A stretch of 34,162 nucleotides of DNA, from the NCBI RefSeq assembly GCF_947496515.1, contig NZ_CANMDB010000020.1, forward strand, positions 1 through 34,162, given 5' to 3'. Source of the stretch: an uncultured Roseobacter sp. (GTDB taxonomy: Bacteria > Pseudomonadota > Alphaproteobacteria > Rhodobacterales > Rhodobacteraceae). Both the position numbers and the translations under genes were made by a program. The notes below the pieces were generated by a model. It was not told the origin of the DNA, made no database searches, and saw only the letters and a list, made by a program, of their open reading frames with translations. Shown piece by piece: positions 24,848 to 27,493 of the stretch. How positions within the stretch are numbered: position 1 is the stretch's first letter; each line of letters begins with the position of its first letter.

Positions 24848-25777
24848 TCAGTCCAGCTTTTCAATCAGCTCAGGCACGGCGGTGAACAAATCGGCCACCA
24901 GCCCGTAGTCCGCCACCTGAAAGATCGGCGCTTCTTCGTCCTTGTTGATTGCCACGATCACCTTGCTGTCTTTCATCCCTGCGAGGTGCTGAATGGCACC
25001 CGAGATGCCAACGGCAACGTAAAGCTCCGGTGCGACCACCTTGCCGGTCTGGCCGACCTGCCAGTCGTTGGGCGCGTAGCCTGAATCAACCGCCGCACGT
25101 GAGGCGCCGACCGCGGCGCCCAGCTTGTCCGCGAGCTTCTCGATCAGCGCGAAGTCGTCCTCGGACCCCACACCACGACCGCCCGAAACGACGACACCGG
25201 CGGAGGTCAGCTCTGGCCGGTCAGTTTCGGCGACCTTGTCCTCGACCCATTCGCTGAGCCCGGGATTGTCCGCAGCGGAAATCGTCTCGACCGACGCGCT
25301 GCCCCCGGTGCCTGCCGCGTCAAAGGTCGATGTCCGGAAGGTCACGACCTTCTTGGCATCGGAGGATTTGACGGTTTGCACGGCGTTGCCTGCATAGATC
25401 GGGCGCTCGAACGTATCGGCGTCCACCACGCCAGAGGCGTCGGAGATCACCATCACATCCAGCAGTGCCGCGACCCGCGGCATCACGTTCTTGGCGTCGG
25501 TGGTGGCGGGGGCGACGATATGGTCATAGTCGCCCGCCAGCGAGACGATCAGTGCTGCGGTGGATTCCGCAAGCCGGTGGCCCAGTGTCGCATCCTCGGC
25601 GACCAGCACTTTGCTGACACCGTCGATCTTGGCGGCGGCTTCGCCTGCGGCGGCAGCCGAGCCACCGGCGGCCAGGACCGTCACATCGCCCAGCATCTTG
25701 GCCGCCGTTACCGCTTTTGCGGTTGCGTCCATGGACAGCTCGCCGTCGGTTACTTCTGCCAAAAGGAGTACGGCCAT
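24848..25777 (-). CDS. etfA: Electron transfer flavoprotein subunit alpha
   Basis: A 309-residue ETF alpha subunit that holds FAD and passes electrons from acyl-CoA dehydrogenases to ETF:ubiquinone oxidoreductase. The N-terminal [14 protein letters not shown] and VVSGGRGVGSEDDF, and the C-terminal FAD-binding signature VDSGYAPNDWQVGQTGKVV, YVAVGISGAIQHLAGM and INKDEEAPIFQVADYGLV are all present. The start overlaps the etfB stop by one base (TAATG). It is a likely electron acceptor for the methylsuccinyl-CoA dehydrogenase in this window. A strong terminator follows. Confidence 0.98.
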   Translation of the reverse strand: MAVLLLAEVTDGELSMDATAKAVTAAKMLGDVTVLAAGGSAAAAGEAAAKIDGVSKVLVAEDATLGHRLAESTAALIVSLAGDYDHIVAPATTDAKNVMPRVAALLDVMVISDASGVVDADTFERPIYAGNAVQTVKSSDAKKVVTFRTSTFDAAGTGGSASVETISAADNPGLSEWVEDKVAETDRPELTSAGVVVSGGRGVGSEDDFALIEKLADKLGAAVGASRAAVDSGYAPNDWQVGQTGKVVAPELYVAVGISGAIQHLAGMKDSKVIVAINKDEEAPIFQVADYGLVADLFTAVPELIEKLD

Positions 25778-26535
25778 TACACGGTCCCCGCTTCTTTGAG
25801 TTTCGATACCAGCTCGTCGACGGAGCCTACCTTGATCCCGGCGGCGCGTGCTGCGGGCTCGACGGTTTTGACCACTTCCAGCCGCGGGGCGACATCGACG
25901 CCATAGTCGGCGGGCGTCTTCTCATCCAGCGGCTTGCGTTTGGCCTTCATGATGTTGGGCAGCGACGCGTAGCGGGGCTCGTTCAGGCGCAAGTCAACCG
26001 TGACGACGCTGGGCATCGCGACCTTGATGGTCTGCAAACCGCCGTCAACCTCGCGGGTGACAACGGCCTTGTCGCCCTCGATGGCAATCTCGGAGGCAAA
26101 GGTCGCCTGGCTCCAACCCATGAGTGCGCTGAGCATCTGGCCAGTGGCATTCATGTCATTGTCGATCGCCTGCTTGCCGCAGAGCACCAGACCGGGCTGC
26201 TCTTCGTCCACGATGCCTTTGAGGATCTTGGCAACAGTCAGCGGTTCGATGTCGTTGTGCACATCGTCGGTCGCGACGACTAGAATAGCCCGGTCCGCGC
26301 CCATGGCAAGCGCGGTGCGCAGGGTTTCCTGGCTTTGCTTGACACCGATGGAGACCACGACGACCTCATCGGCCTGACCGGCTTCCTTCAGGCGGATGGC
26401 CTGCTCGACGGAAATCTCGTCGAAGGGGTTCATCGACATTTTCACATTGGCTAGATCAACCCCCGATCCGTCCGCTTTGACGCGCACTTTCACGTTGTAG
26501 TCGATCACGCGTTTGACAGGCACCAGAACCTTCAT
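25777..26535 (-). CDS. etfB: Electron transfer flavoprotein subunit beta
   Basis: A 252-residue ETF beta subunit, the AMP-binding partner of EtfA. The N-terminus [19 protein letters not shown], the block [20 protein letters not shown] and the ETF beta signature around [20 protein letters not shown] and [12 protein letters not shown] are recognised. AAGGAGAG precedes the ATG. It is the first gene of the etfB-etfA operon and has a 385-base upstream region with a 19-base palindrome and a tandem repeat. Confidence 0.98.
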
Positions 26536-26920
26536 TTGCGTCTCTCTCCTTGCATTCGCGACTCGTTTTCAGCCCGAGCCTTTTCGTGTCCTGGTGCCGG
26601 GTGTATCCAAGCTGCGATGTCTTAAACAGTGTAAAATCGTCACGCCCGGTCTCAGGAACGCCGCGTTCCTGCGAATTTCCGCAGATCAGGACCGAAATTT
26701 CCGATAGCGATCATGGCCGTTGAGCGACTGGGTAGGTGGTCCGGCTATGCAAGTGTCCGGTCGTTCAGAACCAAGTGGGGTGGGCATTCAGCGACTTGCG
26801 CCCGCCCTTGCGGCCCGGGGCTTCGCGCTTCCGGTCGCTGGTGCTGCCACCGGCAGCCCCACCGCTTTCAGCGGTTCGCGCTTCCGGTCGCCAGGCTCTC
26901 CCCCGGAGACCCTGCCGCCT
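26536..26920. other. 385-base region between etfB and pduO
   Basis: No gene is seen. It contains the etfB leader, a 19-base palindrome (26653-26671), and most of a two-copy 53-base tandem repeat with internal hairpins (26827-26932). Short open frames cross the repeat in several registers but do not look coding. Confidence 0.6.
26653..26671. promoter_or_regulatory. Perfect 9-1-9 palindrome upstream of etfB
   Basis: CAGGAACGC (26653-26661) and GCGTTCCTG (26663-26671) are exact complements around one central base, about 118 bases upstream of the etfB start. It could be an operator for a dimeric regulator. As a hairpin it would have at most an eight-base stem with three bases in the loop. Confidence 0.45.
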
Positions 26921-26932
26921 TCAGCGGTTCGC
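26827..26932. repeat. 53-base tandem repeat, two copies, with covarying hairpins
   Basis: Copy A (26827-26879) and copy B (26880-26932) are identical at 39 of 53 positions; the outer ends are almost unchanged and the middle differs. In each copy a 13-position hairpin with a three-base loop can form (A: 26836-26848 with 26852-26864; B: 26889-26901 with 26905-26917), with 11 of 13 pairs. Several differences between copies are compensatory, keeping the pairs. Copy B begins in the last codons of pduO and includes its stop. A short degenerate third end may lie at 26818-26826. Confidence 0.85.
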
Positions 26933-27493
26933 GCCCGGAATCCACAAGACATCGTCTTTGCCGGCGTTGTTGGCCATGCGGGCGGCGACAAAGAACCAGT
27001 CGCTCAGGCGATTGAGGTATTTCACCGCCGCCGGGTTGATCGCCTCCATCGTCGCCAGTTCTACCGACAGCCGCTCTGCCCTGCGCGATACCGTTCGGCA
27101 CACGTGCAGATGCGCTGCGAGCGCAGAGCCGCCGGGCAGGATAAAGCTGCGCAGTGGTTCCAGCTCGGTGTTCATGGCGTCAATCTCGCTTTCCAGACGG
27201 CTCACCTGGCTATCCACCATGCGGAGGGGCGGGTAGTCGGCCTCGGCGTCCTGCTCCATATCCGGACGGCAAAGATCGGCACCGAGATCGAAAAGGTCAT
27301 TCTGGATCCGGCTGAGCGCTGTATCCACCTCGCCGGTGGCCGACAGCCGCGCCACGCCCACAAAAGAGTTCAACTCATCCGACGTGCCATAGGCTGACAC
27401 CCGCAGCGCGTGCTTGGCGACCCGTACACCGTTGCCGAGCGCTGTCTCGCCTGCGTCACCGGTCTTGGTGTAGATCTTGTTGAGAACGACCAT
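26921..27493 (-). CDS. pduO: Cob(I)yrinic acid a,c-diamide adenosyltransferase, PduO type
   Basis: A 190-residue PduO/MMAB-type ATP:cob(I)alamin adenosyltransferase, which makes adenosylcobalamin, cofactor of methylmalonyl-CoA and ethylmalonyl-CoA mutases. The ATP-binding N-terminus KIYTKTGDAGETALGNGVRV, the block RVSAYGTSDELNSFVGVAR and the substrate site FILPGGSALAAHLHVCRTV and RRAERL are intact. The gene name varies (cobO, pduO, mmaB); the sequence type is PduO, not CobA. It lies seven bases after the HIG1 gene. The last three codons and stop lie inside a 53-base tandem repeat. Confidence 0.96.
   Translation of the reverse strand: MVVLNKIYTKTGDAGETALGNGVRVAKHALRVSAYGTSDELNSFVGVARLSATGEVDTALSRIQNDLFDLGADLCRPDMEQDAEADYPPLRMVDSQVSRLESEIDAMNTELEPLRSFILPGGSALAAHLHVCRTVSRRAERLSVELATMEAINPAAVKYLNRLSDWFFVAARMANNAGKDDVLWIPGANR

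Follow-up and report, generated by a model that had tools for sequence, protein, structure and literature searches.

A tandem repeat at the 3′ end of a Roseobacter pduO gene is one member of a structured, dispersed repeat family of Rhodobacteraceae

The window, i.e. the whole stretch of 34,162 nucleotides that we analysed from an uncultured Roseobacter sp., carries pduO on the minus strand, followed on the same strand by etfB/etfA-type genes. A tandem repeat overlaps the 3′ end of pduO. Its fold, read on the pduO strand, is built of a closing stem, P1, in which TTCCGGGCGC can pair with the downstream GCGACCGGAA, enclosing two hairpins, H1 and H2; full units add a third hairpin, H3, which reads GGGC GGA GCCC in long units. 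R1 and R2 are two structure models, R1 built from pduO copies and R2 from dispersed copies only, with no pduO copy among them. The features of the locus are as follows.

26921..27493, minus strand: pduO, cob(I)yrinic acid a,c-diamide adenosyltransferase, its 3′ end within the fold (TIGR00636)
26931..26940, minus strand: P1 5′ arm TTCCGGGCGC, the final pduO codons Ile-Pro-Gly-Ala; partner 26882-26891 (MFE fold, 40-genome covariation)
26915..26927, minus strand: unit 1 hairpin H1 (CCGC..GCGG), enclosing the pduO stop TGA at 26921-26923 (96.9% paired, 40 genomes)
26892..26914, minus strand: unit 1 hairpin H2, the copy B hairpin of an earlier note on this DNA (pairing, covariation, R2 match)
26882..26891, minus strand: P1 3′ arm GCGACCGGAA (fold, covariation)
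26862..26874, minus strand: unit 2 hairpin H1 (fold)
26839..26861, minus strand: unit 2 hairpin H2, the copy A hairpin of that note (pairing, fold)
26829..26838, minus strand: unit 2 copy of the P1 3′ arm (fold, R2 alignment)
26812..26828, minus strand: unit 2 H3 region GCGCGAAGCCCCGGGCC, counterpart of the family GGGCGGAGCCC hairpin (alignment A1; R2 match 26814-26885)
26788..26803, minus strand: terminal partial repeat GGGCGCAAGTCGCTGA, in which a copy of the pduO end has decayed (repeat analysis)
25777..26535, minus strand: etfB, electron transfer flavoprotein beta, the downstream gene, outside the element (gene call)

The tandem pair occupies 26822-26874 and 26875-26927, with a spacing of 53 nt and 39 of 53 bases identical; beyond it, identity at offset 53 falls to the background level. 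The earlier note had described the same repeat in a register shifted by five bases (26827-26932). Its other observations hold as well: counted by eye outward from the three-base loop, 11 of the 13 facing positions pair in each hairpin, with paired bases that differ between copies A and B, and copy B contains the pduO stop codon (26921-26923, minus strand). The hairpin described in the note forms one arm (H2) of a larger fold able to include pduO codons. The repeat also extends beyond the span given there, with copy A belonging to an 80-nt full unit, and the array runs from the short unit 1, from which H3 is absent, through the full 80-nt unit 2 to a decayed partial third copy. The P1 3′ arm of unit 2 has no neighbouring TTCC partner, and P1 of this unit is unpaired in the R2 alignment. 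The H3 region of unit 2 is decayed and pairable only in part.

In the MFE fold of the window on the pduO strand, unit 1 formed P1, H1 and H2. The centroid fold kept the hairpins and paired the pduO arm with 26829-26838, the competing arm of unit 2, and not with that of unit 1. The folding energy by itself was only weakly unusual (z-scores: pduO strand −1.85, opposite strand −2.36), which is not remarkable for such GC-rich DNA; the case for the fold is carried by covariation in relatives. No Rho-independent terminator with a T-run was detected in 26500-27000 (0, against 0.7 in shuffles). Rfam gave no match to the window at the gathering score, and none to four related loci up to E 0.5.

Forty genomes carry the element at the 3′ end of pduO. 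These positives (8 genus genomes, 27 obtained by the family search and 5 named loci) were chosen by model or similarity hits, and a few are degraded, G011, G013, G125 and L107 among them. Their first units were aligned with our own script and compared with our own shuffles and slides. In P1, 86.8% of the cells were paired and 21 doubly changed, where 1000 shuffles gave 4.4 on average and 11 at most. The corresponding values were 87.3% and 67 for H2 (mean 17.7, maximum 28) and 96.9% and 7 for H1 (mean 1.1, maximum 4); H3 was paired in 74.4% of the cells, short units included, and in most long units its GGGCGGAGCCC is preceded by GAA. When the partners were slid, pairing dropped to 34-61% in P1 and H2, and H1 at slide +3 still reached 84.4%. 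The pairs TTCCAGGAGC with GCTCCTGGAA and TTCCGGGCAA with TTGCCCGGAA exemplify the covariation. On the pduO tree, Watson-Crick pair-type changes numbered at least 19 in P1 and at least 58 in H2. The covariation is strong, including that between the pduO codons in P1 and the UTR, and the pairing-preserving differences pointed out in the earlier note are genuine compensatory changes.

The codon preceding Pro-Gly ended in TT in 36/40 positives versus 20/79 negatives (Fisher p 1.1e-11, kinship ignored). Of five independent pairs on well-supported branches, on average 3.9 went in the same direction, 0.0 in the opposite one and 1.1 showed no difference, which is not significant.

The element is patchily distributed at pduO, by repeated loss, gain or transfer. 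Among the 19 genus genomes (G000, the genome of the window, to G018), it followed pduO in 8 (decayed in G011 and G013) and was absent in 11, and is thus dispensable there. R1 matched the pduO end in 11 of the 80 best pduO loci of named genomes, one of them weakly (L107, E 0.065). At E 0.01, it matched in 70 of 394 family genomes, and 27 of the 49 R1 loci read from these were at pduO and 22 elsewhere. On the pduO tree, in which 43/116 inner branches are poorly supported, the presence of the element requires 18 changes, 5 of them forced by well-supported branches. We found etfB downstream in 24/40 positives and not in the other 16, where 1.1-1.7 kb downstream was covered. The position upstream of etfB, as given in the earlier note, is correct for the window; the family tracks gene ends and not etfB.

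Tandem copies at pduO repeat with periods of 53, 61-62 or 79-88 nt. The array of G014 has five copies of 80 nt and that of Ruegeria pomeroyi strain SZCCDBG043 6.3 copies of 62 nt. Several arrays terminate in a partial copy of the pduO end, GGGCGCGAACCGCTGA, and the direct repeats that flank the arrays are themselves part of the repeat unit. A coding repeat was ruled out, as among the periods 53, 61, 62, 79, 80, 81, 83 and 88 only 81 is divisible by three. Two neighbouring features were seen by eye: in G014 (L026/L008), several hundred extra bases with an ORF of ~140 residues separate the five-copy array from etfB, and behind the G020 pduO array (L161) lies a run of differing perfect palindromes, several centred on TTCGAA.

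A search for further copies, as the earlier note had proposed, revealed related copies elsewhere in the genome of the window and in its relatives. Plain DNA similarity gave only the pduO place in that genome, and a 17-nt core with 3 mismatches gave 24+21 hits, fewer than the reversed control (48+57); dispersal was therefore visible only through the structure models and the GAACGGGCGGAGCCC core, which was found in 11/16 genomes with 0-1 control hits per strand. The loci away from pduO share an architecture, roughly GGTGAGGACCGGTCCGC..GCGGCGAACGTCCAGTGGACGTTCGAGGTCCGAACGGGCGGAGCCCCGG. R2 recovered pduO copies in at least eight genomes (G000, G006, G014, G023, G116, G231, G343, G426). It found the window copies at E 7.0e-5 and 5.3e-4 when run on their own genome, and at 4.9e-7 and 6.4e-4 when run on the window alone, where the second match (26892-26927) covers H1 and H2 only. 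The genome of the window contains six units in four places: two at pduO, two in tandem at sucD, and the rest at two more places. Among 25 dispersed sequences, 94.8% of the cells were paired and 108 doubly changed, against 31.1 in shuffles. P1 covaried at 5/5 pairs in this set, and the model leading to these loci did not contain P1. The larger R2-aligned set (113 distinct sequences) gave 94.2% paired and 570 versus 179.5 doubly changed, values that are model-fitted and partly circular. In 28 chosen copies, mean identity was 0.741 within genomes (56 pairs) and 0.670 between genomes (322 pairs).

All 18 chosen Rhodobacteraceae genomes had R2 matches, 1-29 each (E 0.001, pduO copies included). In the class sample, R2 matched in 10/385 genomes, four of the family of the window and six from five other families; among the genomes listed, which leave out 355 match-less ones, one further family member had no match. 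The hits outside Rhodobacteraceae (G492, G507, G550, G648, G731, G779) are weak, and only some of these loci were read. In G779, near-identical longer repeats on several contigs (L242, L250, L256, L262) contain an R2-like hairpin, which could reflect insertion into, or resemblance to, another alphaproteobacterial repeat. Seven loci (L203, L206, L234, L235, L243, L277, L303) form a shorter subclass without H1, in which GTC..GG is followed by a single long H2 enclosed by P1; GAACGGGC, or a sequence close to it, comes next. At L229 (G116:C2:719707-720215), seven consecutive R2 matches of the dispersed type follow one gene with a spacing of ~72 nt.

The plasmid and phage collections held no match to window 26700-26945. 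Searched with two dispersed elements, they gave one partial plasmid match, and with the Ruegeria array one plasmid, matched solely within an adenosyltransferase gene. An incomplete literature search yielded nothing relevant by title and abstract start, so the family may already be in print; the portion consulted of a paper on Ruegeria pomeroyi sRNAs (PMC4809877) contained nothing on pduO or this repeat.

We read 77 loci, three of which (L203, L206, L208) were cut out of register, leaving 74; genes were called “coding-like” by open frame and base composition only. A coding-like sense stop lay within −60 to +20 of the element start at 38/77 loci, and in 30 of those 38 this stop was the TGA or TAA that belongs to the element itself (model bases 3-5). 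The register with the stop codon is hence a property of a large minority, 47/77 loci having no coding-like sense stop in it. At 11 loci, an antisense gene ended near the 3′ side of the element. In the 74 in-register loci, 30/66 in-place stop triplets ended a coding-like ORF, compared, on the same strands, to 49/2650 (1.8%) of other TGAs and 2/351 other GGTGAs. Glycine was C-terminal in 24/29 stop-register genes (own-genome sucD left out). A scan of 20 genes included matches to moaA, folE2, sucC (twice), dnaJ, tsf, phoB, LepA, a carbamoyl-phosphate synthase type, glycyl-tRNA synthetase beta (glyS) and transporter-like proteins; two transporter-like matches were below curated cut-offs, and one gene had no match at the limit set. 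As profile matches extend to the native C terminus, several host proteins are not truncated.

The element follows sucD in 13/17 genus members, all of which end GGG TGA; the four without it end GGC TGA (three) or GGT TAA (Fisher 1/2380, kinship ignored). In the genome of the window (L332, G000:C8), two tandem family members stand directly after the sucD stop, and 12 other genus members have an element there.

The RAYT/Y1 domain PF01797 was not found in 15/16 element-bearing genomes, own genome included, and gave only a 44-position match in G014; in the controls, it was detected in 5/14 genomes, E. coli and Caulobacter among them. No clean empty site with matching flanks was seen. Homologous copies at unrelated genes imply that the family has spread and, with neither a transposase nor an empty site found, past mobility is suggested by these copies together with the patchiness.

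Rhizobium RIME-like repeats, which are likewise alphaproteobacterial, intergenic and palindrome-containing, resemble the family by description. With Rho-independent terminators the elements share GC-rich hairpins that come behind a stop codon, on the strand of the gene; they differ in having two enclosed hairpins and conserved letters outside the stems, and no T-run was found in the window region. The family is closest in kind to REP elements, yet it fails the REP features tested. According to the part consulted of Nunvar et al. 2010 (PMC2817692), REP elements and BIMEs are, like the present repeats, short, palindromic, multi-copy, outside genes, sometimes tandem and likely non-autonomous. The same part proposes BIMEs as RAYT-mobilised, links REP elements to Rho-dependent termination and names Correia and RUP elements as MITEs (PMC2817692). 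REP elements usually exceed 100 copies per genome, compared to 1-29 matches here (E 0.001, 18 genomes), and have a GTAG/GTGG head before the palindrome, none of which was seen by eye in the family alignments. Moreover, the family has a closing stem around two hairpins plus H3, a stop-codon register in a large minority, and in 15/16 genomes no RAYT was found. MITEs such as Correia and RUP share the small, dispersed, non-coding character and paired ends, but the present elements are ~74 nt with paired ends of 5-10 nt, and no parental insertion sequence was identified in a search covering Y1. The suggestion in the earlier note of a structured RNA or a REP/BIME-like palindrome is supported in part, as to a dispersed structured family; a REP/BIME proper is not supported.

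On our preferred reading, to which we give a probability of roughly 0.5, the tandem repeat of the window belongs to a REP-like family of structured Rhodobacteraceae repeats that reached gene ends and most probably act as an mRNA 3′ cap. The repeats would have spread there, frequently with the stop codon in register, and the element would be transcribed as the last part of the coding transcript. The transcript end would then fold into the closing stem P1 around H1 and H2, usually followed by H3. Termination would proceed without a U-tract, presumably Rho-dependently, and 3′-to-5′ exonucleases would trim up to the structure and halt, so that the upstream gene is protected. At pduO, the closing stem would employ the final codons of the gene, and arrays may lengthen and shorten by slippage between direct repeats. 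The idea of an exonuclease barrier builds on the position and orientation of the elements, the lack of a U-tract and general knowledge of mRNA trimming. A point against an RNA cap is that folding of the opposite strand is no less unusual than that of the gene strand. A bolder form, which we propose only tentatively, is that a RAYT-independent mobile element of Rhodobacteraceae, and perhaps of a few other alphaproteobacterial families, inserts in stop-codon register as a portable mRNA 3′-end cap, and that at pduO the last codons were recruited into the closing stem, codon choice and 3′ UTR having coevolved across many genera.

How mRNA 3′ ends are set and protected without a U-tract terminator, and how repeats spread without a known mobilising enzyme, are open questions. 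The family offers a concrete test set for both, with a like fold at many housekeeping genes and natural element-free relatives as controls (4/17 genus members at sucD). It also points to coding positions constrained through pairing with a downstream element.

Mismatch-type pairs bear on whether folding takes place in RNA or DNA. On the gene strand, G-U exceeded A-C by 66 to 31 cells in the 113-sequence set (p 0.0005), by 36 to 22 in the pduO set (p 0.09) and, among the 25 dispersed sequences, by 8 to 6. Going by the larger counts, it is the transcript that folds, a point weakened by model selection and shared ancestry, as the sequences were chosen or fitted by G-U-accepting models and kinship was uncorrected. 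The G-U share of standard pairs (2.7% and 4.3%) seems low for RNA under selection.

This low share would suit a purely selfish DNA repeat, the hairpins of which are recognised as single-stranded DNA by some recombinase, with no RNA role and with stop codons as tolerated or preferred targets. The occurrence at unrelated genes, and at places where no gene end was detected, pduO tandem arrays with flanking direct repeats, and the somewhat higher identity within than between genomes (0.741 vs 0.670) agree with it as well. We nevertheless regard it as unlikely, given the excess of G-U over A-C in the larger counts and the persistence at the same gene (sucD in 13/17 genus members, pduO in 40 genomes), where the letters turn over and the structure stays; a passive insert is not expected to maintain pairing with codons of its host gene. 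A little less likely again, but a live rival, is mutation in place of selection, with template switching at quasi-palindromes copying one arm onto the other at no benefit. The scarcity of G-U or other intermediate pairs (8:6 G-U to A-C in the 25-sequence set) and an H2 stem that differs for the most part between G002 and G015, which are near relatives, are in keeping with such correction. A two-to-one excess of G-U over A-C on the gene strand of the dispersed set is unexpected from a symmetric DNA correction, the P1 arms are separated by 39 nt that include two other hairpins, and the conserved loop, GAA and H3 letters require another reason.

The strongest R1 matches lay at pduO (25 of the 29 family loci read), as would be the case for a pduO-specific regulatory RNA, e.g. 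a cobalamin sensor, in the pduO 3′ UTR or etfB leader. R1 was itself built from pduO copies, though, similar folds were found at other genes (sucD, sucC, moaA, dnaJ and tsf among them), Rfam has no match, and etfB was not found downstream in 16/40 positives within the stretch covered, which makes this explanation improbable. More improbable still, and mostly refuted, is mobilisation by a RAYT (Y1) transposase as a genuine REP/BIME. The palindromic, multi-copy character, the gene-end location and the occasional arrays would fit, BIMEs having been proposed as RAYT-mobilised in the consulted part of PMC2817692; against it stand the PF01797 results (15/16 genomes negative, a 44-position match in G014, 5/14 controls positive), 1-29 matches per genome rather than >100, and the GTAG/GTGG head not seen by eye. 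Local tandem duplication with chance pairing, the fallback of the earlier note in case neither other copies nor covariation existed, drew on the single own-genome place in plain DNA search and the modest fold z-scores. Both copies and covariation were found, and it is refuted by the similar, covarying elements that 40 genomes carry at this position.

We must also note a stretch just upstream of etfB (26538-26707, minus strand), which has a 70-75% match in eight genus members. It is more widespread than the repeat and is perhaps an etfBA promoter or leader.
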